DNA of 64,000 bases from Aromatoleum anaerobium (lineage in GTDB: Bacteria; Pseudomonadota; Gammaproteobacteria; Burkholderiales; Rhodocyclaceae): positions 1-64,000 of the forward strand of contig NZ_WTVG02000040.1 in assembly GCF_012910705.2 (NCBI RefSeq), given 5' to 3'. This document shows, one piece after another, positions 49,701-63,729 of this stretch; within the stretch, counting starts at the first letter, position 1; every line of letters starts with the position of its first letter. The notes beneath the pieces were generated by a model. That model had not been told where the DNA came from and made no database searches. It saw only the letters and a list, made by a program, of their open reading frames with translations. The translations under genes and the position numbers were made by a program.

Positions 49701-52700
49701 TCAAGCCGGTGATCGCAGCGCGCGAAGCTCCAGCCAGCCAGCCCCTTGCGCGCGGGCGATCTCGACGGCACGGCGCAAGGAAACGGCGGCGGCTTCGCTT
49801 TCCCCGCTGCGATAGGCCAGCTCGCCGTCGACGCGCCACAGTTCGGCCTCGAGATAGCGCTGGTTGCAGCGCTGTGTCCATGCGAGCGCCTCGCGGGTGG
49901 CGGCGCGTCCCTCGCGGAACTCGCCAAGCATGCCGCGCGCCCGGCCGAGGAGAAGGAGGGTGTAGGTCAGATGAAGCGTTTCGCCTTCGGCACGCGAGCG
50001 GGCCACCGCGCGCAGGATCGTCTCGAGGCCCGCGGCCGATCCCGCGCACACGTCGAGCCAGCCCCGGAGGGCATCCAGGACGACCGCGAGGTAGCGGTCC
50101 GAAAAGCGCTTCCATAGACGGTCCGCGTCCGCGAGAAGCTCGGCGAGGCGGGCGAGATCCTCGGCTTCGGCCGCGATGATCGCCGCGTAAGTGGTGACGT
50201 ACCCCAAAGTCATCAGATGATCGAGGCCGGCGGCGATCGCGAGCGCCGATCGGGCGGTCTCGTCGGCGCGGCCGGGATCTCCGGCCCACAGCTCGACCCA
50301 GGCCCGCCGCACGAGGCACACCGCCTTCGGGTCCTGGGCGTACAAGGCCAGATGCTCGTCGCGATGGGAAACGTCGTAGGCCTCGACCGCGCCATCGAGC
50401 CAGTGGCGGGCGCTGGTCAGATCGCCGCGCCAGAACGCGCTCACGCCGAGGAGATAGCGGCCTTCGGTCCGGGCGACCGGATCATGACTCTCATGCTCGA
50501 GCAGCGCCCGCGCGAGTTCATCGCAGTCGTCGAAGCGGCAGCCCTGCAGCCGGGCGAGGCCGAGACCACGGAGGATCGGCGGCGCCACGGGTCGGCGAAG
50601 CTTGCGGCACAGCGACAGGGCGCGCTCGTAGAGTTGGTGCGCCCCCCTGGAGCCGTACCCGTCGAGGGCAACAAGCGGGGACCCGAGGGCGATCCGGAGG
50701 TCGAGTTCGAGCGCGTCGCGCTCGGCTGACGGTGGCAATTCGGCGAGCAGCGCGAGCGCGCGCTGAAACAGGGTGACCGCTTCGTCGACGGCCGACACCG
50801 CCACTGCCCGGGCCCCCGCCGCGCGATAGGCGTCGATGGCCGGTTCGACCATGCCGGCCTGGTCGTAGTGGGCGGCCAGCTGCGGGCTCGCCGCGTCGAG
50901 GTCTTTGTGGCGCCCGACCGCGATCGCCGCGGCGACGGCGCGATGGAGCTGGCGTCGACGCGCCGGGCTGACCATCTCCAGCGCGACGGCGCGAAGCTTG
51001 TCGTGAGTGAAATCGTACGTCAGCCCCTGTTCGCGAATGATCCGGCGACGCCAGAGTTCGTCGACGTGATCAACGAGCTCGTGCTCATCGGTCCCGGTGG
51101 CCGAGGCCAGCAGACCGACCGAGAAGGGCCGGCCGATGACGGCCGCCACTTCGGCGAGTTGCCGAGCGCCGTCAGTGAGTTGGCCCAGTCGGGCGCGCAG
51201 CACCGCCCGCATCGTCGGGGTGAGCACTGCCTGACCGCCGTCTGCCGAGATCCCGGCTCGGAGCGCTTCGATGACAAAGAGGGGATTGCCTTCCGTCTCG
51301 CGCCACAGTCGTGCCGCCAGCTTTGGGTCGAGCGTGGCCTCGGCGCGCAGCTGGGCAGCGAGCGTCACAGTGGTGGTTTCGTCGAGTCGGTCGAGTGGCA
51401 CGGTGGTCATTGCCTGATCGTGGCCCAAGGCGTCGACGAGCCCAACGAGGGGATGCTGCGGTGGAAGCTCCTCCCAGCGCACGGTACCGACGATCAGGAC
51501 CGGTGCCGTCTGTCCGGCACGGACAACGAACCCGATCAACTCGATGGTTTCGGCGTCACACCACTGCAGATCGTCGATGATCAACAAGCGCGGCCGATCG
51601 CCGGCGACAATCGCCCGGCCCACCGCGTCGAACAGCCGATGGCGCTGGGCCGGATCGCCCGACCGGCGCCGTTCAGACGGCCGGGAAGCGTCGCGGAGCT
51701 CGGGCAGCAAACGCGCGAGCTCGGCCCGCCAGACCGCGTCGAGCGTGTCGAGGTGGCTTCGGATGGCGTCCGACCGGAGCAGGTCGATGACGGGACCCCA
51801 TGGCAGTCTGCCCGCAGCCTCGTAGGCACGCGCCGCGGCCACTCCGTGCCCCTCTGCCCGAACGTGGCGGCCGAGTTCGAGGGCGAGACGGGATTTTCCG
51901 ATTCCCGCTTCCCCGGTCACCAGCACGAAATGTGTCCCCCTCTCCCGCGCGGCGTTCCATGCCGCGACAAGCTGCTTCCATTCGAGCTCGCGGCCGACGA
52001 AAGGCGATTCGGCGACGGGCAGGTCCTTGCCCCGCACTTCGTCGCGGTCGAGCGTGCCGGCCCGGAGCTGTCGGTACAGCGACCCGATCCCCTCGCCCGG
52101 TGCCACCCCGAGCTCGCGCTCGAGCACCTCCGCGTAGCGGTGGTAGGCGCGCAACGCCGCGGCTCGATCGCCAAGCGCGAGGTGTGCTGTCATCTGAAAT
52201 CGAACGGCCGCTTCGTCGGTCGGCTCCAGGCCGATGATGCGTTGGGCATGCCTGAGCGTGGCTTCGTGGTCGCCGCGCCCCGCCGCCTCTTCGGTCAGCC
52301 GCACGAAGGCCCGATACGCCTCGGCGCGAAGTGTCGCTCGCTCATCAACGACACAGTCGTCATAACAGGCGGGAAGGAGATCGCCCCCATAGAGGCGCGC
52401 GGCGAGCGCGAAAGCACCGGCCGCCACGGCATCCCGGAACCTCAGCACATCGACCTCGCTCGGCCCGGTCGCGATCCACCGCACCGTCTCGTGGTCGATG
52501 TCGACGAACTCGCCGCTCTCGGGAAGGGCATGACGGAAGTCGTGGAGCAGCTTTCTGAGGTTGGTGCGCGCCTGCGCTTCGTCGGAGTCGGGCCACAGCT
52601 CGAACGCGAGTCGTGCGCGGTGCTGCGGGCTTCGCCGCAACGCGATCAACGCCAGAAACCGTTGCAGGCGAAGCGAGTCGAAGGCGCGCAGACGCCGACC

Positions 52701-52787
52701 GTCCAGGATGATCTCGACCGCACCGAGAAGTCGGATCTGTAACCGCGCCGGCCGCTCGCCACCGACCCCGCTCGTGGCACTCGCCAT
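49701..52787 (-). CDS. SARP/BTAD-type transcriptional regulator with AAA ATPase and TPR region
   Basis: Protein of 1028 residues; GAGGAG lies 6 bases before the chosen ATG (MASATSG). Order: OmpR-type winged helix (about 17-95; 'LQIRLLGAVEIILDGRRLRA'), bacterial transcriptional activation domain (about 110-245; 'DVLRFRDAVAAGAFALAARL'), AAA/STAND-type ATPase with Walker A GEAGIGKS (292-299) and Walker B 'RLLIIDDLQW', then a long helical TPR-like region. The layout is that of AfsR/SARP regulators best known from actinomycetes. Signal unknown. The flavoprotein gene beyond the toxin-antitoxin pair is a possible target. Confidence 0.88.
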   Translation of the reverse strand: MASATSGVGGERPARLQIRLLGAVEIILDGRRLRAFDSLRLQRFLALIALRRSPQHRARLAFELWPDSDEAQARTNLRKLLHDFRHALPESGEFVDIDHETVRWIATGPSEVDVLRFRDAVAAGAFALAARLYGGDLLPACYDDCVVDERATLRAEAYRAFVRLTEEAAGRGDHEATLRHAQRIIGLEPTDEAAVRFQMTAHLALGDRAAALRAYHRYAEVLERELGVAPGEGIGSLYRQLRAGTLDRDEVRGKDLPVAESPFVGRELEWKQLVAAWNAARERGTHFVLVTGEAGIGKSRLALELGRHVRAEGHGVAAARAYEAAGRLPWGPVIDLLRSDAIRSHLDTLDAVWRAELARLLPELRDASRPSERRRSGDPAQRHRLFDAVGRAIVAGDRPRLLIIDDLQWCDAETIELIGFVVRAGQTAPVLIVGTVRWEELPPQHPLVGLVDALGHDQAMTTVPLDRLDETTTVTLAAQLRAEATLDPKLAARLWRETEGNPLFVIEALRAGISADGGQAVLTPTMRAVLRARLGQLTDGARQLAEVAAVIGRPFSVGLLASATGTDEHELVDHVDELWRRRIIREQGLTYDFTHDKLRAVALEMVSPARRRQLHRAVAAAIAVGRHKDLDAASPQLAAHYDQAGMVEPAIDAYRAAGARAVAVSAVDEAVTLFQRALALLAELPPSAERDALELDLRIALGSPLVALDGYGSRGAHQLYERALSLCRKLRRPVAPPILRGLGLARLQGCRFDDCDELARALLEHESHDPVARTEGRYLLGVSAFWRGDLTSARHWLDGAVEAYDVSHRDEHLALYAQDPKAVCLVRRAWVELWAGDPGRADETARSALAIAAGLDHLMTLGYVTTYAAIIAAEAEDLARLAELLADADRLWKRFSDRYLAVVLDALRGWLDVCAGSAAGLETILRAVARSRAEGETLHLTYTLLLLGRARGMLGEFREGRAATREALAWTQRCNQRYLEAELWRVDGELAYRSGESEAAAVSLRRAVEIARAQGAGWLELRALRSPA

Positions 52788-52836
52788 AGGGCTCCTCTGG
52801 CTGCGCTCGCCCTGTCCGGTCGCGGACCTTCCCGGC

Positions 52837-53043
52837 TCACGGGCTTTCGTTCTTCCCCTTGTCGTCCCGCCCGCCAGTTTCCCCGGTCTTCGGCGCGACC
52901 GGGTCGCGTTTCGGGGACACGGCCGGCGGATCGCTCGCCGGGAAACTCTCTTCGCTCGACTCGTCGATAAGATCCTCGACATGCGAATCCTTCGGCTTGT
53001 GCACCGAAGGATCGGTGTACGGTTTCTGTGGGGTGGTGGTCAT
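52837..53043 (-). CDS. Small acidic hypothetical protein
   Basis: Protein of 68 residues; AAGGAGA precedes the ATG. It is hydrophilic, rich in Pro, Asp, Glu and Lys, with no fold signature. The central segment DLIDESSEESFPASDPPAV is a motif I associate with small conserved proteobacterial proteins of unknown function. It is probably intrinsically disordered. It lies between the BTAD regulator and mgtC on the same strand. Confidence 0.7.
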   Translation of the reverse strand: MTTTPQKPYTDPSVHKPKDSHVEDLIDESSEESFPASDPPAVSPKRDPVAPKTGETGGRDDKGKNESP

Positions 53044-53136: not shown

Positions 53137-53616
53137 TCAGGGACGGTCGTTCCCTTCGGTGTCGGTCCAGATTTCGATCTGGCGCAGCACCGAAAGCACG
53201 ATCCACGTGATCACGGTCGCGGCGATCGCAACGCCGAAACGTCCCAGCCCGATCGTCACGCCGATCGCGGACGTCATCCATATCCCTGCGGCAGTCGTCA
53301 GTCCGCGGATGTTGTTTTCCCGTTCGCGTTTCAGGATCGCGCCCGCGCCGAGGAAACCGATGCCGGTAACCAAGCCCTGGATGACGCGCGACAGGCCGGA
53401 GCTGTCCATGCCTCCCTCCACCGCCGCGATGACGAACAGCGTCGAGCCGGACGCGACGAGGATATGCGTGCGCAATCCGGCGGCCTTTCCCGCGCGTTCG
53501 CGCTGCATGCCGATGACGGCGCCGCACAGCAGCGCGACCATCAGGCGCAACACCGGCCTGACGAGTTCATGAAACCCGCCCAGCCCGGCAGTGAGTTCGG
53601 CGAGGATCGTATCCAA
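53137..53616 (-). CDS. MgtC/SapB-family membrane protein
   Basis: Protein of 159 residues from a TTG start; GGAGG stands 5 bases before it and the protein then begins (M)DTILAELTAG, as in the family. An upstream ATG lacks such a site. Membrane helices at about 25-40, 50-65, 75-95 and 118-140 carry the hallmark segments 'CGAVIGMQRERAGKAAGLRT', 'HILVASGSTLFVI' and 'GLVTGIGFLGAGAI'. MgtC-like proteins modulate ATP synthase and magnesium homeostasis and matter in stress survival. A near-consensus sigma-54 promoter lies about 77 bases upstream. Confidence 0.9.
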   Translation of the reverse strand: MDTILAELTAGLGGFHELVRPVLRLMVALLCGAVIGMQRERAGKAAGLRTHILVASGSTLFVIAAVEGGMDSSGLSRVIQGLVTGIGFLGAGAILKRERENNIRGLTTAAGIWMTSAIGVTIGLGRFGVAIAATVITWIVLSVLRQIEIWTDTEGNDRP

Positions 53617-53692
53617 GACGGCCTCCGTGGCCCCGCGGATGCGCGGCGCGCGGAAGGCGTGCAGCCCGCATGCATGTGGCACGCACCGACGA

Positions 53693-53744: not shown

Positions 53745-54308
53745 TCAACGCGGCCGCAGCAGTGACGGCGGCTCCGGCTCGGGCGGGCGTGGCGCCAGCC
53801 GCAGGGTCTCGCGCTCCGCCTCGCGCGCTTCCCGCGCCAGCGCCCGCAAGCACAGCGCGACGGTGCCGGCGAACACCTCGTCGTAGCACGGAAACGCGCC
53901 GCTCGCCGCGACGACGATGCCGTCGAGGCACACGCCACCGGCGAGCAGCGTGTCGCCGGTGCGCAGCAGGTGCGGGAACTGCTGCTGCACGACGCGGCCG
54001 TCCCTGCCGGTTGTCCAGCTCAGCCGCGCCTTGGCGCGCGCGAACGCGGCGTAGTCGGCGTCCCACGCGGCGCGATCGCCGAACGCGTGCTCGTGCAGAA
54101 TCGCCTCCTCGAACGACGCGGTGCCGGGCGCTCGGGCCGGGTCCATGACGACGACGTGGAGAAAACCGCTGCCGACGACGCTGCGGTCACGCATCGCGTG
54201 CTCGATCATCGGGGCCGCCAGGGCGATCGCCCGGCGGGCCGCGGCAGGCGTGAGGTAGTGGCTGCCGGCGCCAGGGGCGGCGGGCGCATCTTCATTCAGT
54301 GTCGTCAT
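53745..54308 (-). CDS. GlcG/HbpS-like protein
   Basis: Protein of 187 residues. The pattern 'YLTPAAARRAIALAAPMIEH', 'AFARAKARLS' and 'LLAGGVCLDGIVVAASGAFP' resembles the GlcG/HbpS family, small proteins that bind haem or cobalamin-like ligands or assist diol dehydratases. The N-terminal 20 residues and a Pro-rich tail are extra. GGAG precedes the ATG at 11 bases. It follows the ABC-fusion gene by 60 bases and may be its operon partner. The family call is moderate. Confidence 0.6.
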   Translation of the reverse strand: MTTLNEDAPAAPGAGSHYLTPAAARRAIALAAPMIEHAMRDRSVVGSGFLHVVVMDPARAPGTASFEEAILHEHAFGDRAAWDADYAAFARAKARLSWTTGRDGRVVQQQFPHLLRTGDTLLAGGVCLDGIVVAASGAFPCYDEVFAGTVALCLRALAREAREAERETLRLAPRPPEPEPPSLLRPR

Positions 54309-54368
54309 GTCGGGCTGCTCCGGGGTGGGTTTCGGGGAAAGCGCTCGGGCTGCCGCCAAGCGCGAAAG

Positions 54369-57098
54369 TCATGGCGGCGGTTCGAGGGCCGGTGGCGCAG
54401 GCGAAGGCGAAGGAGAATCGGCGCGCCGTCCGGCAAGGTTCGCGATCACGGCGACGAGCTCGTCGCCGTCGACGGGCTTGGCGATGCACACCTGGAACCC
54501 GGCGAGCATCGCGCGCATGCGGTGATCACCGCGATAGGCGCTCAGCGCGATCGCGGGCAGACGGTCGGCGAGGCCGAACTCGTGCTCCACCTCGAAGCGG
54601 CGCAGCTGCCGGATCACCTCGTAGCCGTCCTCGTCGCCGAGCGCGACATCGCAGACCAGGATGTCCGGCCACCTGGAACGCGGCAGCGCGAACAGCCACT
54701 GGAGCGCCGCGGCGCCGGACGGGTTGGAACGCGACAACGCGCCGTGCCGGTTCAGCAGCGCCTCGAGCTGCGCCCGTATTTCGGCGTTGTCATCGACGAC
54801 CAGCACGTTGATTCCTGAAATCGACGGCACCGCGAGCGCCGGGGTGCCCACGACAGGCGCTGCGCCGCCGTCCGCTGCGGCGACGCCGAGCGCTGGCGCC
54901 CCCCGCAGCGGAAACTCGACGATCGCCCGCACGTCCCCGTCCGGGTCACGCCGCAGCTCGATCGTGCCGTGGTGCTGCTCGACGATCGCGCGGATCGTCG
55001 TCAGGTCGAGCGGCGGCACCCCGGCGGCTGGCGGAGGTTCGGCGTCGGCCGTCTTTCCGGCGTGAATGAAGCTCACGCGCAGGCGCTCACCGACGCGCTC
55101 GATGCGCCACTCGGCGCGTCCTCCCGGCGACGTGGAGGCGATCGCGTTCTCGGCCAGCGCCCACATCACCTGCTGCAGCAGCCCCGGATCGCCGGTGATG
55201 CGCACCGGGTCGGCGGTAATCGTGCTGTAGAAGCCGATGCCGCGCGCGTCGATCGCGGCGCGCAGGCCATCGACGACGCCGGCGAGCAGCGCGACGAGGT
55301 TGATCTGCTGCGTCGCAAGGCCCCGTTCGGCGCGCTCGACTTCCTGCTGCTGGCGCTGCAGTTGCCACAGCTGCGCGTAGATCCCGCCCTGGCGCAACAG
55401 GTGGTCGTGCGAGCCGCGCTCGACGACACGGCCGTGTTCGAGCACGAGGATCTCGTCCGCGTCGACGACCGTCGACAGGCGGTGCGCGATGATCAGCGTC
55501 GTGCGCGTCTTCGCCAGCCGGTCGAGCTCGTCCTGGATCGCCCGCTCGGAGCGCGTGTCGAGCGCCGACGTCGCTTCGTCGAACACCAGGATCGGCGGAT
55601 TCTTGAGGATCGCGCGCGCGATCGCGATGCGCTGCTTTTCGCCCCCCGACAGCATCACTCCGCGTTCACCGACTTCGGTGTCGTACTGGTTCGGCAACGC
55701 CGAGATGAAATCGTGCACGTGGGCGGCCTTCGCCGCGTCGATCACCTCGGCGAGCGACGCGCCGGGGCGCCCGTAGGCGATGTTGTACGCGACAGTGTCG
55801 TTGAACAGGATCGTGTCCTGCGGCACGATGCCGAGCGCCGCGCGCAGGCTGCGCAGCGAGACCTCGCGGATGTCGACGCCGTCGATGAGGATGCGCCCGC
55901 CGCCGACCTCGTAGAAGCGGAACAGCAGCCGCGCCAGCGTCGATTTGCCCGAACCGCTGCCGCCGACGACCGCCACCGTGCCGCCGGGCGAGATCGTGAA
56001 GCTCACGTCCCGCAGGATCTGCCGGTTCGGCTCGTAGCCAAAGTCGAGGTGCTCGAAGCGCACCTCGCCGCGCGAAACCGCGAGGTCCGCCGCCTGCGCG
56101 ATTTCGCCGATTTCGGGCTTCTGTTCGAGCAGGCGCAGCATTTTCTCGGCGTTGACCGCCGCGTCGCGGGTCTGGCGAAAGACGAAACCGAGCGAGTTCA
56201 GCGGCAGGCAGATCTGGATCACGTAGGCGTTGACCAGCACCAGGTCGCCAACCGACATCGAGCCCTGCACGACGTTCTGCGCCGCGAGCAGCATCACGCT
56301 GGCGACGCCGACCGCGATGATCGCGCTCTGGCCGATATGCAGCATCGACAACGCCTTCTGGTTCTTGACGCCGACGTCGACCCAGTCGTCGAGGATGGTG
56401 CCGAAGCGCCGCTGCTCGTAGCGCTCGTTGGTGTAGTACTTGACCGTCTCGTGGTTCAGCAGGCTGTCGACGAGCCGCCCGTTGGCGCTCGAATCGAGCT
56501 CGTTGAGCGCGCGCTGGTAGATCGCCCGGCGCTCGGTGAACAGCACCGTGAAGCTCGCATAGACGAGAAAGGTCGCGAGGATGACGCCGGTGAACCAGTC
56601 GCTGTAGTTCAGCGTCATGATCACGATCACCGCGATGATCTCGACCATCGTCGGCAGGATCGTGAACAGCCCGACACCCAGTAAAAAACCGATCCCCGCC
56701 GTGCCGCGCTCGACGTCGCGCGTGACGCCGCCCATGCGGCGCTTGGCATGGAAACGCGAGCTGAGGCGGTGCAGGTGCTGGAACACGTCGAGGAGGAATC
56801 CCGACACCGTCTTCTGCGTGACGCGCACAAACACGACGTCGCGCACTTCGCTGAAGAACGTGCCGAGAAAGCGCAGCAGCGCGTAGCCGAGCAGGAGGAA
56901 AACCGGCAGAACGGCGACCGGTGCATCGCCCAGGCTGTCGATGATCGCTTTCAGCGCCAGCGGCACCGAGACCGCGGCGAGCTTCGCGAGGACGACCAGG
57001 CCGAGCGCAGCCGCAGTGCGCTGCGGATAGCGGAGCACCGCTGCCGACAGCAGGCGCAGGACGAAGCCGCGCGTCGAGGGCGGCGAGGAAGCTCTCAT
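54369..57098 (-). CDS. ABC exporter (Atm1/HMT-type) fused to kinase-type ATPase and receiver domains
   Basis: Protein of 909 residues. Residues about 15-320 are a six-helix exporter domain; 345-575 a nucleotide-binding domain with Walker A GGSGSGKS (379-386), signature LSGGE (483-487), Walker B ILVFDE (503-508) and H-loop His539, closest in style to Atm1/heavy-metal-tolerance exporters. A coiled linker (576-595) leads to a GHKL/histidine-kinase-like ATPase domain (about 595-732; 'LLQQVMWALAENAIASTSPG') with a recognisable N box but degraded glycine boxes and no phospho-acceptor histidine. Residues 763-888 are a receiver domain with Asp769, Asp770, probable phospho-site Asp817 and Lys874. The start follows a terminator and has a weak ribosome site; a longer start would overlap the PRC gene. 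Confidence 0.9.
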   Translation of the reverse strand: MRASSPPSTRGFVLRLLSAAVLRYPQRTAAALGLVVLAKLAAVSVPLALKAIIDSLGDAPVAVLPVFLLLGYALLRFLGTFFSEVRDVVFVRVTQKTVSGFLLDVFQHLHRLSSRFHAKRRMGGVTRDVERGTAGIGFLLGVGLFTILPTMVEIIAVIVIMTLNYSDWFTGVILATFLVYASFTVLFTERRAIYQRALNELDSSANGRLVDSLLNHETVKYYTNERYEQRRFGTILDDWVDVGVKNQKALSMLHIGQSAIIAVGVASVMLLAAQNVVQGSMSVGDLVLVNAYVIQICLPLNSLGFVFRQTRDAAVNAEKMLRLLEQKPEIGEIAQAADLAVSRGEVRFEHLDFGYEPNRQILRDVSFTISPGGTVAVVGGSGSGKSTLARLLFRFYEVGGGRILIDGVDIREVSLRSLRAALGIVPQDTILFNDTVAYNIAYGRPGASLAEVIDAAKAAHVHDFISALPNQYDTEVGERGVMLSGGEKQRIAIARAILKNPPILVFDEATSALDTRSERAIQDELDRLAKTRTTLIIAHRLSTVVDADEILVLEHGRVVERGSHDHLLRQGGIYAQLWQLQRQQQEVERAERGLATQQINLVALLAGVVDGLRAAIDARGIGFYSTITADPVRITGDPGLLQQVMWALAENAIASTSPGGRAEWRIERVGERLRVSFIHAGKTADAEPPPAAGVPPLDLTTIRAIVEQHHGTIELRRDPDGDVRAIVEFPLRGAPALGVAAADGGAAPVVGTPALAVPSISGINVLVVDDNAEIRAQLEALLNRHGALSRSNPSGAAALQWLFALPRSRWPDILVCDVALGDEDGYEVIRQLRRFEVEHEFGLADRLPAIALSAYRGDHRMRAMLAGFQVCIAKPVDGDELVAVIANLAGRRADSPSPSPAPPALEPPP

Positions 57099-57153
57099 CG
57101 GGGCTACGGTCGCCTGCTTGGCGCCCCGCGCTGAGGGAGGCCGATCGTTCGGC

Positions 57154-57192
57154 AAAAAACAGGGCCGGGGCGAAATTCCGCCGCCGGCCCTG
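57154..57192 (-). terminator. Strong terminator between the PRC gene and the ABC-fusion gene
   Basis: On the minus strand: stem CAGGGCCGG / CCGGCCCTG with a GC-rich loop followed by six T. It lies 16 bases after the PRC-barrel gene stop, so the fusion gene needs its own promoter or read-through. Confidence 0.9.
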
Positions 57193-57207
57193 GCCCTCAG
57201 GCAGGGG

Positions 57208-57675
57208 TCAGTGGCTCGGAGGCTGCCAGTAGTTCCGCTGGCCGTAATAGGCGTGTATTTCACTCGCCCACGTGGTGTCGGCCATGCTCGGCCAGTGGTC
57301 CTTGTCGAACCCCGGAGCGTTCTTCAGCCGTTCGGCGTCCACGTCGAGGATGAAGCACTTGCGGTCCGTGTCGAGCGTCAAGGCGCCCCACGGGATCGCA
57401 AAGAGCTTGCGGCCGAGGCCGAGAAAACCGCCCGTGGACAGCACCGCGTACGCGACCCGGCCGCTTTGCACGTCGATCATGACCTCCTTGATGTTGCCCA
57501 GGTCTTCCCCGGCGCGATTGACGACGTCGTCGCCTTCCAGCGTGCTCGCCGCCATGACCTCGGGGCCGGGTCCGCTGTGGTCTTCATTTCCCGAGCCGAC
57601 GATGTCGGCGTGTTGGGTGCTAGTGGTGGTGGTAGTGCCGGTAGTGGTGGTGCCGGGAGGATTGATGCTTGCCAT
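57208..57675 (-). CDS. PRC-barrel domain protein
   Basis: Protein of 155 residues; AGGAG lies 9 bases before the ATG. A Thr-rich N-terminal tail (about 10-25) precedes the PRC-barrel domain ('LEGDDVVNRAGEDLGNIKEV', 'GFLGLGRKLFAIPWGALTLD'). PRC-barrel proteins of this size are common in osmotic and general stress clusters; the molecular role is unclear. It follows the BON gene by 73 bases containing a hairpin, and ends at a strong terminator. Confidence 0.88.
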   Translation of the reverse strand: MASINPPGTTTTGTTTTTSTQHADIVGSGNEDHSGPGPEVMAASTLEGDDVVNRAGEDLGNIKEVMIDVQSGRVAYAVLSTGGFLGLGRKLFAIPWGALTLDTDRKCFILDVDAERLKNAPGFDKDHWPSMADTTWASEIHAYYGQRNYWQPPSH

Positions 57676-57716
57676 GTCATTACTCCTTTTGGATGAAGGT
57701 TCCACGATGAAGACGA

Positions 57717-57738
57717 CCGGACGCCGGGCGGCGTCCGG
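57717..57738. repeat. Perfect 9-bp hairpin between the BON and PRC genes
   Basis: The arms CCGGACGCC and GGCGTCCGG flank a GGGC loop. No T run follows in either direction, so it may be an mRNA-processing or attenuating hairpin that sets relative expression of the two genes. Confidence 0.6.
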
Positions 57739-57748
57739 CCGGCGCTGC

Positions 57749-58726
57749 TCACTCCCTGCCTTGTCCTGTCGACTTGCCGGAGGAGCTTCCTCGTCCGCCC
57801 GAATCGCCCGGCTCCGACTGCCCGGATACCGATCGCCCGGACGAAGCTCCGGTTTCCTGCGCACTCTGGTGCGACGACGCCTCGAAGCTGGCGAACGTCT
57901 GCGCTCCGGGCGGAGGCTCCGGAGCACGGATGCGCAGGTGGTTTTCGATGTCCTTGACGCCCCAGCAGCTGTCGGCGACGTCTTCGATCCCGTGCTTCAT
58001 GTAGCGCTCGGGAACCGTCCCTTCGAGCGTGACGCAGCCGTGCGAAACAGTCACCGAGACCTCGCTGACGTCGAGCGACTGGTCCTGCATCAGGCGCTCG
58101 CAGACGATTTCACGAAGGCGCTCGTCGGAACGCGAATAGCCTTTCGGCCCCTGGCGGCCGCGCCCGACGTCGCTCCACAGCCGCATGCCGCGGTATTGCG
58201 GCGTGCGGCTGTACGACGGGCTGCCCACGTATGGCAGTTCCTGGTCCTGGATCCACTGGCCTTGCGACGACCCGTAGTCGCCCGCGCCGAAGCCGCCGCG
58301 CAAGCCGCCCTGCTGAAAGCGCCCCAGGGCGGGGTCCACGGGGCCGTAGTCGGCGTCGCCGGAAATCCCGTGATACGGCCGGTTGCCGCCGTACCCGCCA
58401 CACCCTTCCAAGCTCCCGCCCGGGTTGCCCTTGCGCCAGTCCTGCAGGTTCGGGTCCTGTCCGGAGCGTCCGTATTCCTGGCTCGCGCGCCCGCCGAACG
58501 AACCTTCGCGCACCGAGCCATAGCCCCCCGCCGAACCTCCATCGTCAAAACCGCGCTGGCTGCCCTGCAGCTGCTGCGGCTGGCGTGACCCGCTGCCCTG
58601 ATCCTGTCCGAAAACGCCGGGCGGCCTGCCATAACCCGGTCCCGGCATGCCGCGCCCGCCTTGTTCGCGGCGGACCTGTTCGTCGTGCTGCTGTTGCGTT
58701 GGCTGCGAACGATGTCGTTTCATCAT
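57749..58726 (-). CDS. BON-domain protein with long Gly/Gln/Arg-rich N-terminus
   Basis: Protein of 325 residues (two ATG codons in a row; AGGAGGAG precedes them). Residues 1-200 are low-complexity, rich in Gly, Gln, Arg, Ser and Tyr ('GSGSRQPQQLQGSQRGFDDG'), with no signal peptide. The BON domain covers about 205-275 ('DERLREIVCERLMQDQSLDV', 'VTVSHGCVTLEGTVPERYMK'). The tail is Ser/Gly-rich. BON domains bind phospholipid and are found in envelope-stress proteins. A consensus sigma-54 promoter lies 88 bases upstream. Confidence 0.85.
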   Translation of the reverse strand: MMKRHRSQPTQQQHDEQVRREQGGRGMPGPGYGRPPGVFGQDQGSGSRQPQQLQGSQRGFDDGGSAGGYGSVREGSFGGRASQEYGRSGQDPNLQDWRKGNPGGSLEGCGGYGGNRPYHGISGDADYGPVDPALGRFQQGGLRGGFGAGDYGSSQGQWIQDQELPYVGSPSYSRTPQYRGMRLWSDVGRGRQGPKGYSRSDERLREIVCERLMQDQSLDVSEVSVTVSHGCVTLEGTVPERYMKHGIEDVADSCWGVKDIENHLRIRAPEPPPGAQTFASFEASSHQSAQETGASSGRSVSGQSEPGDSGGRGSSSGKSTGQGRE

Positions 58727-58813
58727 CGTGCTCCTCCTGCGCGATCGGTGAGCTGCCGGAGGACGCCTTGCGTCCTGGTGACGGCGGCCCTGCTCCCTCT
58801 TCCGCGGAGAGTG

Positions 58814-58828
58814 GCAAACGCCGTGCCC
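58814..58828 (-). promoter_or_regulatory. Putative sigma-54 promoter of the BON gene
   Basis: Minus strand reads GGGCACGGCGTTTGC followed by C. GGCACG and TTGC match the consensus fully, with correct spacing. The predicted start near 58802 gives a leader of about 76 bases. Probably drives BON and PRC genes together. Confidence 0.7.
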
Positions 58829-58934
58829 ACCCTGGGCGTCCTGCCGAACAGGCCGATCGGCCGTCACGGCGGCGCAAGGCGTTGCAACGATTACAGGAGG
58901 ATGCAATTCGCGGCGCGAACCGGCACCGCGAATG

Positions 58935-61931
58935 TCACGCGGCCGACGCTCTCAGGCGTTGCGTCTCGCGGTCCGCGGCGTCGAGCACCGCGGCGATGGT
59001 CTCGATCAGGATCCGCGCTTCGACCGGCTTGCCGACACATTCCTGGAAGCCGGCGAGTTCGAAGCGCGTCCGGTCGAGGCGGCTCAGGGCGGTCACCGCG
59101 ACTGCCGGGATGAACGGCAGCGAAGCCAGCTCGCGCACGCGCTGCAGCACGCTGAAGCCGCTGTCGCCCGGCATCGCGATGTCGAGCAGCAGGATCGCCG
59201 GCAGGCTGACGGCATCGGGCCGGGCGAGTTCCGCGAGGAGCTCGGCACCGGAACTGAAGGTGCGCACGTGCGCACCGGCCTGCGACAGGATCAGCGTCAT
59301 CACTTCGCGCGCGTCCGCCTCGTCATCGACCACCAGCGCTTCGACGCCTTCGAGCGCGGTGCGCGGCGGACGGCCTTCCCGCGCCTCGGGCGATTCGCCC
59401 GGCAGGGCATCCTGCACCGGGCCGGGCAGTTCCACCGTGAATACCGAACCGCAACCCGGGCCGGCGCTCTCGACCCGCACGCTGCCGCCGTGGAGTTCGA
59501 CCAGGTTGCGCACCAGCGCGAGCCCGATCCCGAGGCCCTGGTGGCGACGCGTCATCGAAGTGTCGGCTTGGCTGAAGCGGTCGAACACGTGCGGCAGGAA
59601 GCCGGCCTCGATGCCGACTCCGGAATCGGCGACCGACAGGATCACCGACGTCTCGCCCCGGGTCAGGCGCAGCTCGACCCAGCCGCCTTCGGGCGTGAAC
59701 TTCAGCGCGTTCGCGAGCAGGTTGATGACGATCTGCTGCAGCCGGTCGTGGTCGCCGTTGATCGTCATCGACGGGCGATCGGTGTGGACGCGCAGCTCGA
59801 TCCGTTTCGCCTTTGCCGTATCCCACGAAAGGTCGATCGCGGCGTTGACGATCTCGACGAGATTGACGCGGCGGCTGTTCAGTTCGAGCTTGCCGCTGAT
59901 GATCCGCGACGTGTCGAGAAGGTCGTCGATCAGCCGCGTCTGGTGGTCGATGTTGCGCTTGATCGCCTCCGCCGCGCGCAGCACCGTCGCGGGTTCGGGG
60001 TTGCCCGACGCGGTCAGCACCTGGCTCCAGCCTTTGAGCGCGTTCAGCGGCGAACGCAGCTCGTGCGAAACGATCGCGAGGAACTCGTCTTTCGCGCGGT
60101 TGGCGCGTTCGGCCTCGCCGCGCAGGCGGTGTTCGGCGACGAGCAGCTGTTCGAGTTCGCGCTGCGCGCGCTTGCGCTCGGTGATGTCCTTGGACACGCC
60201 GACGAGGCCGAACACGTGCCCCTGCGAGTCGCGCAACGGCGACTTCGTCACGAGGAAAGTGCGCGTGCCCGCGCGGGTCGTACGCGATTCCTCGACGACG
60301 ATCGGCCGGCGCGTCTCGATAACGCGGCGGTCGTTTTCGAGGATGCGCCGCATTTCCTCGGAGTCGCCGAAAAGACTCTCTTCCTTGTGCCCGACGACCT
60401 GCGCGCGGCTCAGCCCCATCGCCTGCAGCGCGGCCGGATTGACCATCATGATGCGGCCTTCGCGGCTTTTCGCGACGATCAGCTCCGGCGTGCTCGCGGC
60501 GATCGTGCGCAGCAGCGTCGTGCTCTCGCGCAGCACCGACATCGTCCGTTCCAGCGCCCGCGTGCGGTCGCCGACGCGCCGGTCGAGTGCCGCGTAGGCC
60601 TGCCGGTCCGCATGTTCCCGCGCGCGATGGGCGCGGGCGTCGCGCAGCACCAGCACGCCGCCGCTGATCCCGCCTTTCCAGTCGCGGATCGGCGTCGCGG
60701 TGGCCTCCACCGCGCGCACGCTGCCGTCACGCATGCGCAGCGCCGGTTCGCCGCTGATCGTTACCTGGCGCAGCTCGGAAAACGCCCTCGCGAACGGCGA
60801 CCCCATCGGCTGGTCGGTGGCTTCGTCGACGAGCACGACCAGCTCGTGCAGATCGCAGCCGATCGCGTCGCCGGCCTTGACGTCGAGCAATGTCTCCGCC
60901 GCCGGGTTGAGGAACCCGACACGCATCTCGTTATTGACGGTGATGACTGCGTCCTCGATCGTCGCCAGCGTGACCTCCAGCCACTGCTGCTGCGTGTTGG
61001 CGCGAATCTCGGCGATCGAACGGTCGGTGTTCATCTCGTCGAGCCGGGCGGCGGTCCACAGGATCAGGACCGTGCACGCGACGATCATCGCCACCGCCAC
61101 GACCCCTTCGCTCTCGACCACGCCGAACCATCCGAAGCGCTGGCCCAGTGCCTGCAGCCAGCCGGCCAAGAGCGGCACGGCGACCGCGACCGGCAGCAGG
61201 CGGCGGAAAATCACCGCGCCGGGCGAATCGTGCTCGAGCAGCTGCATGAACCGCGGCGACGGATGCCTGATCAGCAGGCTGAAGCTCGTGATCAGCAGCG
61301 CCAGCGCGACCGGCAGCGCGATGCCGACCGAAGGGATCGCGAGGTTCAGGCGGACGAGATGGAAAGTCAGCCCCACCACCGCCACCAGCGCGACGCCGCC
61401 GACGGCTACGGCCAGCAGCCGCGAGATCGCGACCAGGCGATGGTCGCTCAGGGGCGCCAGCGCCAGCGCCGCGGCAAGAAGGAGGTAGGTGGTGGCTGTC
61501 CCGACTGCCGGCCCGGACGGGGAATAAATGGATCCGGCTTCGGCCGTCGGCAACAGCGGCGACAGGACCATGCCGACCGGGTCGGGTCCGACCGTCAGGG
61601 CCATCACCGACATCAGCGCGACGACAAGGGCCGCCACCGCGACAGTGAAACGCGCGCGCGCGGCCGGCGCACGGTCGAGCTCGCGCAACGCGAAGGCAAC
61701 GAACAGGAGCTTGACGATACTGGTCGGCATGAACGGCACGAACTCCGCCCCCAGCGTCCCGAGCGCGGGCATCCCGATGAACCACCCCACCGCGCCGATC
61801 AGCGCCAGCACCGCGACCGCGGGGCTCGCGTACGCCGACACCTGCTGGAGCCGCATGCCCCAGACGCTCGGGGCCCGTTCCGCGGCAGCGGGAAGGAAGA
61901 CGCTATCGCCCATTCGCATCGTCATCGGCAT
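58935..61931 (-). CDS. Hybrid sensor histidine kinase with eight-helix membrane sensor, two PAS and receiver
   Basis: Protein of 998 residues. Residues about 30-295 hold about eight hydrophobic helices (MASE-like integral sensor). PAS domains lie at about 312-430 and 472-588. The kinase core has His623 (AIVSHELRSPLNAL), N box NLLANALKFTPEG, G1 DSGVGIE and G2 HQGLGIGLALVRN. A receiver (about 863-985) has Asp869, Asp870 and Asp917 (LLLDIAMPG). The kinase lies between the BON gene and the yqjD operon and could feed the regulator at the window end. The ATG at 61931 lies too far (16 bases) from the GGAGG upstream; see the leader peptide entry. Confidence 0.93.
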   Translation of the reverse strand: MPMTMRMGDSVFLPAAAERAPSVWGMRLQQVSAYASPAVAVLALIGAVGWFIGMPALGTLGAEFVPFMPTSIVKLLFVAFALRELDRAPAARARFTVAVAALVVALMSVMALTVGPDPVGMVLSPLLPTAEAGSIYSPSGPAVGTATTYLLLAAALALAPLSDHRLVAISRLLAVAVGGVALVAVVGLTFHLVRLNLAIPSVGIALPVALALLITSFSLLIRHPSPRFMQLLEHDSPGAVIFRRLLPVAVAVPLLAGWLQALGQRFGWFGVVESEGVVAVAMIVACTVLILWTAARLDEMNTDRSIAEIRANTQQQWLEVTLATIEDAVITVNNEMRVGFLNPAAETLLDVKAGDAIGCDLHELVVLVDEATDQPMGSPFARAFSELRQVTISGEPALRMRDGSVRAVEATATPIRDWKGGISGGVLVLRDARAHRAREHADRQAYAALDRRVGDRTRALERTMSVLRESTTLLRTIAASTPELIVAKSREGRIMMVNPAALQAMGLSRAQVVGHKEESLFGDSEEMRRILENDRRVIETRRPIVVEESRTTRAGTRTFLVTKSPLRDSQGHVFGLVGVSKDITERKRAQRELEQLLVAEHRLRGEAERANRAKDEFLAIVSHELRSPLNALKGWSQVLTASGNPEPATVLRAAEAIKRNIDHQTRLIDDLLDTSRIISGKLELNSRRVNLVEIVNAAIDLSWDTAKAKRIELRVHTDRPSMTINGDHDRLQQIVINLLANALKFTPEGGWVELRLTRGETSVILSVADSGVGIEAGFLPHVFDRFSQADTSMTRRHQGLGIGLALVRNLVELHGGSVRVESAGPGCGSVFTVELPGPVQDALPGESPEAREGRPPRTALEGVEALVVDDEADAREVMTLILSQAGAHVRTFSSGAELLAELARPDAVSLPAILLLDIAMPGDSGFSVLQRVRELASLPFIPAVAVTALSRLDRTRFELAGFQECVGKPVEARILIETIAAVLDAADRETQRLRASAA

Positions 61932-62061: not shown

Positions 62062-62466
62062 TTACCGTTTCGCAATCGCGCGCGGCCCCTGCCAGGGAGG
62101 TGACGGGGTCGCGGCTGCGCCTGACGGAGCGGCTCTCCCCGCGCCCTGCTGCTGCAGCCAGCCCACCAGCTGCGGCACCGCGGCCCACGGGTTGCCGTAG
62201 CGCCAGCGCAACGCGGACAGCGCCAGACCCGTCGCCACCGCGAGAAAGCCCTTGCGCACCGGTGCCGCCGCCTCGTGCCGGGGAGGGCGTCGCCGCATCA
62301 CGTTGCCGACGACAAACCCCATCATCAGCGCTGTGCCCAGGCCACGCGGGGACGCGAGTTCGCTGCGCACATGCGCGCGCCAGGCGTCGAACTGCGCGTC
62401 CAATAATGCCCGCTCGCGCGCGACCCGCGCTTCCGCCTCCGCGAGCGATCCTCCACGCGTGTTCAT
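62062..62466 (-). CDS. Hypothetical protein, third gene of the yqjD-yqjE-type operon
   Basis: Protein of 134 residues. A charged N-terminal helix ('AEARVARERALLDAQFDAWR') is followed by a segment with two weakly hydrophobic helices ('GLGTALMMGFVVGNVM', 'GFLAVATGLALSALRW') and a Gly/Pro-rich tail. The position after a YqjE/holin-like gene (ATGA overlap) matches that of YqjK-type proteins in enterobacteria, but similarity is weak. Probably membrane-associated. Confidence 0.65.
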   Translation of the reverse strand: MNTRGGSLAEAEARVARERALLDAQFDAWRAHVRSELASPRGLGTALMMGFVVGNVMRRRPPRHEAAAPVRKGFLAVATGLALSALRWRYGNPWAAVPQLVGWLQQQGAGRAAPSGAAATPSPPWQGPRAIAKR

Positions 62467-62855
62467 CGTCGGTCTCCGCCCGGCGGCTCGCCCTCGACCT
62501 GCCGCAACGTCGCCGCGAGCGGCGGATTGTGCTTGAGCTGACGCCACAGCCACGTGCCCGCGAGCGCGGCGGCGACGATGTTGATCAGGCCCGCGCACGC
62601 CAGCACCCCCGGCCACGAGATGCCGTCCTGGAGCAGCCAGCCGGCGACGGCGACAACGAATGCGAGCCACGCCGTGACCACCAGCACTGCCGCCACGATC
62701 GCGACGCACAGCACTTCGATGACCTGGTGCACCGCGTGGCGGGCGTCGACGACGACCAGCGCTGCGTACGCTTTGGCCAGACTTTTGACCCGCCGCAACA
62801 AGCCCGGCAGCGAAGGGTCTGCCGGGCCTGTTTCGTACGTCCCCGCCGCCATCAT
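62463..62855 (-). CDS. YqjE/phage-holin-family membrane protein
   Basis: Protein of 130 residues with two strong membrane helices (about 48-75 'VLCVAIVAAVLVVTAWLAFV' and 83-103). 'LPGLLRRVKSLAKAYAALVV' resembles the YqjE branch of the holin superfamily. In this context it is a stress-linked inner-membrane protein, not a lysis protein. It lies between the yqjD-like gene (21 bases upstream) and the overlapping third gene. Confidence 0.85.
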   Translation of the reverse strand: MMAAGTYETGPADPSLPGLLRRVKSLAKAYAALVVVDARHAVHQVIEVLCVAIVAAVLVVTAWLAFVVAVAGWLLQDGISWPGVLACAGLINIVAAALAGTWLWRQLKHNPPLAATLRQVEGEPPGGDRR

Positions 62856-62876
62856 CGACTCCCGCTCGCGGCGCGG

Positions 62877-63161
62877 TCAGTGCGACGTGAAGCGGCTGAA
62901 CAGCATCCCCACTCCCACCGCGATCACCACCGACGCGACCGGATGGCGCCTGACGCACTCGCGCGCGCCTTCCAGCATATGCTCCTGCGCCGCGATCCAC
63001 TCCTGCCCTTTTTCCCCGGCGTGCCGCAGCGTCGAGGACGCGGCCCCGGCAACACGATTGACCGCCTCGTGGGCAGTGCTCGAGAGCTGCTCTATTTTCT
63101 CCGCTCCCTTCTCCGCGCTTCCGGCCATCGTGCCTTGCGTACCCGTTGTCGTGTTTTCCAT
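62877..63161 (-). CDS. YqjD/ElaB (DUF883)-family membrane-anchored protein
   Basis: Protein of 94 residues; AAAGGAG lies 9 bases before the ATG. A helical body with 'AEKIEQLSSTAHEAVNRVAG' and 'KGQEWIAAQEHMLEGARECV' ends in a C-terminal anchor helix ('HPVASVVIAVGVGMLFSRF'). E. coli relatives YqjD and ElaB bind ribosomes at the membrane in stationary phase. First gene of a three-gene operon with a consensus sigma-54 promoter 72 bases upstream. Confidence 0.88.
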   Translation of the reverse strand: MENTTTGTQGTMAGSAEKGAEKIEQLSSTAHEAVNRVAGAASSTLRHAGEKGQEWIAAQEHMLEGARECVRRHPVASVVIAVGVGMLFSRFTSH

Positions 63162-63232
63162 TCTGGGTTCTCCTTTGAGTGATCTGCCGAAGCCCGTTGC
63201 CGAGGCAAAGCCGCTGGCGTACTCGCCGATGA

Positions 63233-63247
63233 GCAAGCCGCGTGCCC
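63233..63247 (-). promoter_or_regulatory. Putative sigma-54 promoter of the yqjD-like operon
   Basis: Minus strand reads GGGCACGCGGCTTGC followed by T: GGCACG and TTGC match the consensus fully at the right spacing. The predicted start is near 63221, about 60 bases before the ATG. Confidence 0.7.
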
Positions 63248-63261
63248 GAACGAGATGACAT

Positions 63262-63630
63262 TCATCGCCGGCGCTCATCCTCGCGCGGGTCGCGGTTCGT
63301 CGCCTCCGGCGTCTCGGGCGGCACGTCGGCGCCGGGCGAGCGTTCAGGCGGCACGCCCGGCCCCGGGACGTCCGACGGAATACCGCGCCCCGCAGTGTCG
63401 CGCAGGCCGCGGCGGATATCGCGCGCTGCCTGTTCGATCACCTTGCGCGGGAGTTTCCCCTCCGGCTCGGGCCGGTCGGGCGCTTCGTCCCTTTCATGCG
63501 GCAGCGGCAGCTCGTCGGCAACCGGGGGACGGGCCAGGTTCGTGTCTTCGGCATCGGGTACCGGATAACGAGGGTTCGGTGGATCGGCCGGACCGGGTCT
63601 GGACGGGCCGTGTCTGCTTTCCTTGCTCAT
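63262..63630 (-). CDS. Hypothetical Pro-rich charged protein
   Basis: Protein of 122 residues; GGAGG lies 8 bases before the ATG. Very rich in Pro, Arg, Glu and Asp, with no hydrophobic segment, so likely disordered and cytoplasmic. One possibly folded stretch is 'LPRKVIEQAARDIRRGLRDT'. It lies between the regulator gene at the window edge and the yqjD operon. I do not recognise the family. Confidence 0.65.
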   Translation of the reverse strand: MSKESRHGPSRPGPADPPNPRYPVPDAEDTNLARPPVADELPLPHERDEAPDRPEPEGKLPRKVIEQAARDIRRGLRDTAGRGIPSDVPGPGVPPERSPGADVPPETPEATNRDPREDERRR

Positions 63631-63729
63631 TGGCACACCTCCGGGGGAGTTCGCATGTCCTCACCTGCAAGCACATTCCATGCAGGGGGAAAACGCGTGC
63701 CGCCGCAGGAAATGCAATGCGGATGTCCA

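Follow-up and report, generated by a model that had tools for sequence, protein, structure and literature searches.

A gene of Aromatoleum anaerobium that joins an ABC exporter to a pseudo-histidine-kinase domain and a receiver domain

The output controlled by a two-component receiver is in most cases transcription, an enzyme or motility. Whether such a domain can also act on a membrane pump is the question raised by one gene of Aromatoleum anaerobium, found within the first 64,000 nucleotides of contig NZ_WTVG02000040.1 (the whole stretch analysed, hereafter the window). The gene lies on the minus strand at 54369-57098 (start 57098, end 54369) as a single open reading frame (ORF) of 909 codons plus stop with zero internal stops, and joins an ATP-binding cassette (ABC) exporter to a HATPase_c-like domain and a receiver (REC) domain. 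The open frame bears out the one uninterrupted 909-residue protein described in an earlier note on this DNA, to which the minus strand is now added. The architecture of the gene, the catalytic state of its domains, the selection acting on them and the gene neighbourhood can be read from the sequence. They lead us to favour, tentatively and at slightly less than even confidence, a glycoconjugate exporter that would be modulated through phosphorylation of the attached REC domain by a kinase acting in trans. With a receiver as part of an ABC exporter, transport would, if this is true, become a direct and fast output of phospho-signalling, and a signalling pathway may switch the export pump itself on or off.

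The fusion is genuine. Its full-length form was found in 15 genomes, A. anaerobium included, and in six plasmid records, so a frameshift or a chimeric assembly join is ruled out, and the stop or frameshift between the exporter and the C-terminal module that the earlier note had allowed for is contradicted. The protein of A. buckelii is 96% identical, and the eight other loci in that search were far weaker. Among 395 genomes of the family (E <= 1e-200), 14 matched, 13 of them at full length including A. anaerobium, while G361 was tail-less (G numbers denote comparison genomes, L numbers loci or stretches). The order search (300 genomes, E <= 1e-195) matched 118, with full-length proteins besides that of A. 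anaerobium in G490 and G671, and the class search (274 genomes) matched 28, the tail being covered in A. anaerobium alone. Of the order-search exporters, six with long open frames or extended matches were chosen for close inspection, and all six lacked the tail; the other tail-less exporters of the order and class searches were classed by matched range alone. A profile of the tail matched seven of 200 order genomes (E <= 1e-50), with fused genes in A. anaerobium and G490; the remaining matches were six kinase-like loci in five genomes, which group with hybrid kinases in the tail tree. The same profile matched one of 249 genomes of the phylum, the A. anaerobium gene itself. The cut-offs of these searches would miss weak or very diverged fusions.

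Plasmids extend the distribution. Fourteen of 72,556 plasmid records matched (E <= 1e-150): seven from Burkholderiaceae, fused in every case examined, and seven from Azospirillum, whose matches reach no further than residue 574. Six fused plasmid proteins were aligned, namely those of Paraburkholderia sp. D15 (WP_281004281.1), P. sprentiae (WP_027194805.1), Caballeronia zhejiangensis (WP_008345359.1), Caballeronia sp. M1242, Cupriavidus sp. EM10 and Burkholderia multivorans (WP_060043828.1); a second B. multivorans record (H13) was excluded. Where they are annotated, the name given is only that of an "ATP-binding cassette" or an "ABC transporter transmembrane" domain-containing protein. With the 15 genomes they make up the 21 proteins in which residues are counted below. 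On a Burkholderia cenocepacia plasmid record (NZ_CP091014.1, L164) the fused gene is split over several overlapping frames, unlike that of B. multivorans, and this may be a sequencing error or a broken gene. On the plasmid of Paraburkholderia sp. D15 (L160), no more than 9 kb separate the fused exporter from genes for a manganese catalase, a ferritin-like protein, a hemerythrin and a phosphatidylserine decarboxylase, a grouping that may hint at a stress island.

The N-terminal part is intact. The complete Atm1-type half-transporter announced by the earlier note is there: ABC_membrane and ABC_tran domains are both present (Table 1), the Walker A lysine, the Walker B aspartate and glutamate, the Q-loop and the H-loop are invariant in all 15 fused genomes, and K385, E508 and H539 are conserved in 21/21 proteins. 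The best match among solved structures is NaAtm1 (PDB 4mrn; residues 20-587, E 3.9e-159). The best NCBIfam model is that of MsbA (TIGR02203), whose score of 424 bits lies under the curated cut-off of 602, so the fused protein is not an MsbA equivalog. It has the sequence features of a type IV ABC exporter of the Atm1-like half-transporter kind. The same genome encodes an ordinary exporter paralogue (C24), 52% identical, which stops where the tail would start.

The first tail domain is of the GHKL type, as in histidine kinases. The earlier note had described it as having degraded glycine boxes and no phospho-acceptor histidine, and in this it was right: HisKA gave no Pfam match anywhere in the 909-residue protein. 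The clear N box, however, is no family feature, since Asn651 is conserved in 8/21 fused proteins. The G1 aspartate is conserved in three of them, the A. anaerobium protein having His679 at its place, and G490 alone has both residues. In the alignment with the hybrid kinase encoded nearby the ATP lid is absent, with a gap of 16 columns, and no G2 motif is found. The HATPase_c match itself is marginal (27.6 bits against a Pfam cut-off of 26.4); when the 15 tails of the genomes were scanned singly (E <= 0.01), Response_reg was recognised in 14 and HATPase_c in nine. Judged by the marks of a histidine kinase (HisKA or the histidine of the dimerisation and histidine phosphotransfer (DHp) domain, N and G boxes with a lid), this part is a predicted pseudo-domain. 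The attached catalytic and ATP-binding (CA) domain should not act as a kinase, and the phosphate would therefore have to come from another kinase or a small phospho-donor. An AlphaFold model of the tail, a prediction proposed in the earlier note and made here from a four-sequence alignment, gave CA-like and receiver-like folds (mean pLDDT 64.3, pTM 0.48) that match histidine-kinase and receiver structures, each domain separately. The best structural match by E-value was full-length ShkA (6qrj, E 6.2e-15), but its TM-score is only 0.38 and the relative arrangement of the two domains is thus unconfirmed.

The receiver is in a very different state. Asp817 and Lys874 stand at the positions given by the earlier note, and 18/21 fused proteins retain the full set of Asp769, Asp770, Asp817 and Lys874, so that Asp817 could indeed be a phospho-acceptor. 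Adding Ser/Thr853 reduces the count to 17/21, G008 having Gly there. The residue set is kept even where identity to the A. anaerobium REC domain falls to 41-42% (G490 and G671). The acidic pair, the acceptor aspartate and the lysine expected of a response-regulator receiver are thus found in the A. anaerobium sequence, and the receiver looks phosphorylatable in most lineages. It is degenerate in G010 and G019, which are sister lineages, and separately in G284, so phosphorylation would be dispensable in these three. The persistence of the tail there suits an explanation in which the tail works independently of phosphorylation, the pseudo-CA and REC domains serving as a docking or dimerisation platform (a pseudo-receiver) for a partner such as a kinase or the small downstream protein ORF204, with the REC residues kept mainly for the fold. 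We consider this unlikely, though not negligible, because the retention of the four residues in 18/21 proteins despite strong divergence elsewhere in the tail points to phospho-chemistry in most lineages.

Might the tail be kept for no reason at all? In six pairs among four Aromatoleum-group genomes the ratio of nonsynonymous to synonymous substitution rates (dN/dS) was 0.05-0.13 for the transmembrane domain and 0.06-0.10 for the nucleotide-binding domain, 0.06-0.16 for HATPase and 0.09-0.23 for REC; the linker between the latter two gave 0.24-1.67, values resting on few changes. These ratios indicate that both tail domains are under purifying selection among close relatives. The pair G130-G029 gave 0.13 for HATPase and 0.08 for REC, with synonymous sites near saturation, and the pairs G184-G214 and G042-G184 gave 0.14-0.18 for REC and 0.52-0.53 for HATPase, a weak constraint. 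That the tail is an evolutionary passenger, decaying slowly since one fusion event, would agree with this relaxation in one group, with the lost HATPase catalysis, with the three degenerate receivers and with the faster evolution of the tail than of the exporter part across the fused proteins. Purifying selection on both domains and a complete REC site in 18/21 distantly related proteins speak against it, and we hold it to be very unlikely. Tail losses would be under-counted here, because the 21 proteins were chosen for full-length matches.

The trees suggest how the fusion arose. Fused proteins form one group in the exporter trees, with support of 92/82 for 15 proteins and 76/66 for 21, and a single gain of the tail is the likeliest history. 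Tail-less proteins of G626 and G532 fall inside the same larger exporter clade (100/100) and may have lost the tail. The earlier note had likened the tail to the back half of a hybrid kinase, and the neighbouring hybrid kinase is indeed the other protein of the genome that it matches best (158.6 bits, the next match 67.8). A recent local copy of this kinase is unsupported as the source: in the tail tree the tails form one clade and the neighbour kinases another, each at 100/100.

The neighbouring kinase (58935-61931), in which kinase and receiver motifs are present, had also been put forward as the phosphate donor, and here the evidence disappoints. In 8/15 fused genomes, A. anaerobium included, an orthologue is encoded no more than about 6 kb from the fused gene; G184 and G214 have theirs away from it, giving 10/15. 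None was found (E <= 1e-70) in G284, G130 and G490, while G029 has a partial relative (48% over residues 585-982) and G671 weaker relatives (37-38%); the candidate donor is thus not found, or partial or weaker, in 5/15 genomes. REC is complete in 8/10 fused genomes with the orthologue and in 4/5 without it, which shows no association. A hairpin followed by a T-run, spotted by eye and folded afterwards, lies between the PRC gene and the fused gene and recurs in all four other loci folded (G007, G005, G008 and G042); a promoter and terminator scan gave 0 promoters (0.3 expected) and four terminator-like sites (4.8 expected), none of them at 57145-57200. The idea of a dedicated donor is not supported, co-occurrence also weakens the kinase as an obligate partner, and it appears to be a weak candidate for the partner of the exporter. 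Kinases of this type also occur in G013 (a shorter form) and G014, neither of which gave an exporter match at the family cut-off of E <= 1e-200. G184 and G214 have a second cassette (L147, L148) that comprises kinase, BON, PRC, ORF204 and MgtC genes but no exporter; their fused exporters lie elsewhere with PRC and BON genes of their own. Upstream of the window kinase, small genes at 62062-63636 on the minus strand, one with a holin-III-like match over the cut-off and one DUF883-like under it, are conserved together with the kinase cassette in several loci. Downstream of the cassette, 49701-52982 on the same strand encodes a 1093-residue protein with BTAD and AAA_16 domains.

The direction of control could also be reversed: the exporter would be a sensor whose kinase-like tail engages a histidine kinase, transport flux setting the kinase output. 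RetS acting on GacS, a kinase-like protein that engages a histidine kinase, may be likened to this. A precedent for flux sensing is BceAB-BceS (PMC12189002, in excerpt). The orthologous kinase near the fused gene in 8/15 genomes is in line with such a flow, as are other, less similar kinase-like genes near it in further loci, such as those of G671 and B. multivorans. The five genomes with no kinase orthologue, or with partial or weaker relatives, and the lack in the tail of HisKA helices for heterodimerising make the reversed flow quite improbable.

A closer companion is ORF204, the small orphan gene directly downstream. It was found in 15/15 fused genomes (in 12 as a neighbour of the fused gene, in G184, G214 and G490 at another place) against 10/15 for the kinase, and by this count its association with the fused gene is the stronger. 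Within the family it occurs in nine of 229 genomes, eight fused ones and G014, the latter one of 221 others; G098, which is not fused, gave a weak match of 43 bits. In B. multivorans the homologue (WP_039224258.1) follows the fused gene, overlapping it, and in Cupriavidus sp. EM10 it lies near. This constancy in the genomes fits the phosphorylation-independent platform described above, whereas the other four of six plasmid records showed no ORF204 on the stretches searched. ORF204 also occurs away from the fused gene, together with kinase and PRC genes, in G014 and in the second cassette that G184 and G214 each have. Family scans of the window member gave no match up to E 5, and among 12 relatives the matches were weak, one in Pfam (QslA, 0.089) and two in NCBIfam (0.06 and 0.14). 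Against PDB the single sequence had two matches at 0.13-0.14 and the profile none up to E 1, while a low-confidence model (pLDDT 57.6) had no structural match under E 0.001, several MglB/Roadblock chains appearing at E 0.1-0.4. A GlcG/HbpS-like nature, suspected by eye, was rejected: the profile comparison with the one PF03928 member of the genome gave 1.7% probability and E 0.029 over 18 columns. From these scans ORF204 is a conserved orphan family without a recognised Pfam, NCBIfam or PDB relative.

What the exporter may carry is suggested by a glycan gene cluster. In B. multivorans the fused gene and ORF204 are followed by genes for SDR, HAD-IIIA, GT9, carbamoyltransferase, GT2, GT9 and GT4 proteins. 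The HAD protein passes general HAD-IIIA and histidinol-phosphatase models and stays under the GmhB cut-offs, the GT9 proteins stay under heptosyltransferase cut-offs, and the carbamoyltransferase passes Pfam models; the similarities are to heptosyltransferases, to the heptose phosphatase GmhB and to carbamoyltransferases. When the seven were used as queries (E <= 1e-10 or 1e-15) and a cluster was taken as at least three within about 25 kb, it was found near the fused gene in 14/15 genomes and 6/6 plasmid records, the query source counted, a stronger association than that of the neighbouring kinase. Distance and orientation vary across many lineages. The tail-less clade-mates G626 and G532 both have the cluster (the contig of G361 spanned only 8 kb in this check). 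For cluster proteins the 60 kb surrounding the ordinary A. anaerobium paralogue (L178-L180), a control from a single genome, gave 0 hits, and there were none round the kinases of G013 and G014, ORF204 aside, or in L210 beside the second cassette of G214. A. anaerobium is the sole exception among the 15: in C2:64001-104000 of its own contig only the HAD-phosphatase gene was found, a cluster remnant just beyond the window end (C2:65554-66510). A. buckelii has SDR, HAD, GT9 and GT4 genes at a distance of about 10 kb from its fused gene. In the alignment with A. buckelii the SDR, GT9 and GT4 genes are missing from A. anaerobium, possibly by an assembly error, and two GT9-like ORFs lie about 60 kb away (C2:116.6-119.6 kb). 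A Pseudomonas core-oligosaccharide cluster of comparable make-up holds msbA plus carbamoyltransferase and PIG-L genes (PMC8005017, in excerpt).

The exporter could instead belong to the heavy-metal or thiol exporters of the Atm1 type, the glycan genes being bystanders. NaAtm1 as the best solved match would agree with this, as would the retention of the fused gene in A. anaerobium after most of the cluster has gone. Recurrence of the cluster with the fused gene across lineages, distances and orientations, its presence at both tail-less clade-mates and its absence beside the ordinary paralogue oppose it, and we give such a substrate a low probability. This explanation is silent on the tail and compatible with the others, and the alternatives considered here are partly compatible with one another.

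Returning to the glycoconjugate exporter modulated by phosphorylation, we propose the following. The exporter would be a homodimeric Atm1/MsbA-like protein of a subfamily tied to a heptosyltransferase/carbamoyltransferase-type glycan cluster, and would most likely carry across the inner membrane a glycoconjugate (a glycolipid or a lipopolysaccharide (LPS)-core-like molecule) or a precursor of it. The tail of the exporter would go back to a CA-REC unit, like that of a hybrid kinase, which has lost the DHp domain and ATP binding. The pseudo-CA domain may now be a linker or dimer scaffold, holding the receiver beside the nucleotide-binding domains. A histidine kinase in trans would phosphorylate Asp817, and the resulting change in receiver shape would raise or lower the ATPase cycle of the exporter. 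A bolder form of this proposal is possible but more doubtful: the transport cycle of an ABC exporter would be a two-component output, aspartate phosphorylation opening or shutting a glycolipid or LPS-core-like flippase, a post-translational control of export instead of or besides transcription. Several observations weigh against the proposal, namely the three degenerate receivers, the weak HATPase constraint in two pairs, the incomplete record of the candidate donor, the single-genome paralogue control, and A. anaerobium itself, where the fused gene is still constrained although the cluster near it is reduced to the HAD gene. The natural variants, with a complete REC, a degenerate REC, or no tail in clade-mates by the same glycan genes, provide a comparison set for the function of the tail.

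Table 1. Features of the fused gene and its surroundings (window coordinates)
Feature	Position	Strand	Basis
Fused exporter-HATPase-REC gene, 909 aa	54369..57098	-	Open frame, Pfam, 20 other full-length relatives aligned
ABC exporter transmembrane domain, residues 31-296	56211..57008	-	Pfam ABC_membrane 117.9 bits; NaAtm1 4mrn match
Nucleotide-binding domain, residues 362-511	55566..56015	-	Pfam ABC_tran 110.9 bits; catalytic residues conserved
HATPase_c-like pseudo-domain (predicted), residues 636-732	54903..55193	-	Pfam 27.6 bits; residue tables; lid gap
Receiver domain, residues 765-885 (Asp769, Asp770, Asp817, Ser853, Lys874)	54444..54806	-	Pfam Response_reg 58.2 bits; residue tables
Codon of predicted phospho-acceptor Asp817	54648..54650	-	Asp in 20/21 fused proteins
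Hybrid histidine kinase (hydrophobic N-terminus, PAS, HisKA, HATPase, REC)	58935..61931	-	Pfam; orthologues
BON-domain protein (ORF coordinates, start uncertain)	57749..58906	-	Pfam PF04972; conserved neighbour
PRC-barrel protein (ORF coordinates, start uncertain)	57208..57927	-	Pfam PF05239; conserved neighbour
Terminator-like hairpin and T-run between PRC gene and fused gene	57145..57200	-	-32.1 kcal/mol, z -3.05
ORF204-family gene, 187 aa from ATG at 54308 (listed ORF 53745-54359), directly downstream of fused gene	53745..54308	-	
MgtC-family protein, downstream of ORF204	53137..53682	-	Pfam PF02308; at fused locus in 6/14 other genomes

How does this protein compare with known systems? An exporter-receiver fusion was not found in a full-text literature search, judged by titles and the starts of abstracts among the matches listed and covering few subscription papers. 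ABC transporters with attached regulatory domains are already known, and so are transporter-kinase fusions, some of them REC-ended (SLC5/STAC). In OpuA, with its CBS domains, and CFTR, with its R domain, an ABC protein is under the control of a regulatory domain attached to it, which is not a two-component receiver. NaAtm1 is the closest solved relative of the exporter part, but its chain of 614 residues has no HATPase/REC tail, and the context of the fused gene is glycan synthesis. Hybrid histidine kinases, such as ShkA and the neighbouring kinase, share the order of CA followed by REC, and ShkA leads the matches of the tail model by E-value, whereas the fused tail has neither HisKA nor a working ATP site. 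The lipid A-core flippase MsbA provides the best NCBIfam model and its gene is found in a similar setting (PMC8005017, in excerpt), but the fused protein falls under the equivalog cut-off and has a tail. In BceAB-BceS an ABC transporter is coupled to two-component signalling (PMC12189002, in excerpt); there transporter and kinase are separate proteins, while in the fused protein the coupling is covalent, with a receiver at the end. In the SLC5/STAC histidine kinases (CbrA, CrbS, RpuS) a transporter is covalently joined to two-component domains, and two such kinases of Sinorhizobium fredii end in a REC domain (PMC9100948, in excerpt). Those proteins combine a symporter with a histidine kinase, whereas the present one combines an ABC exporter with a dead CA domain and a receiver, without HisKA. 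Apparently new here, as far as its predicted domains go, is an ABC exporter that ends in a pseudo-CA domain and a receiver.

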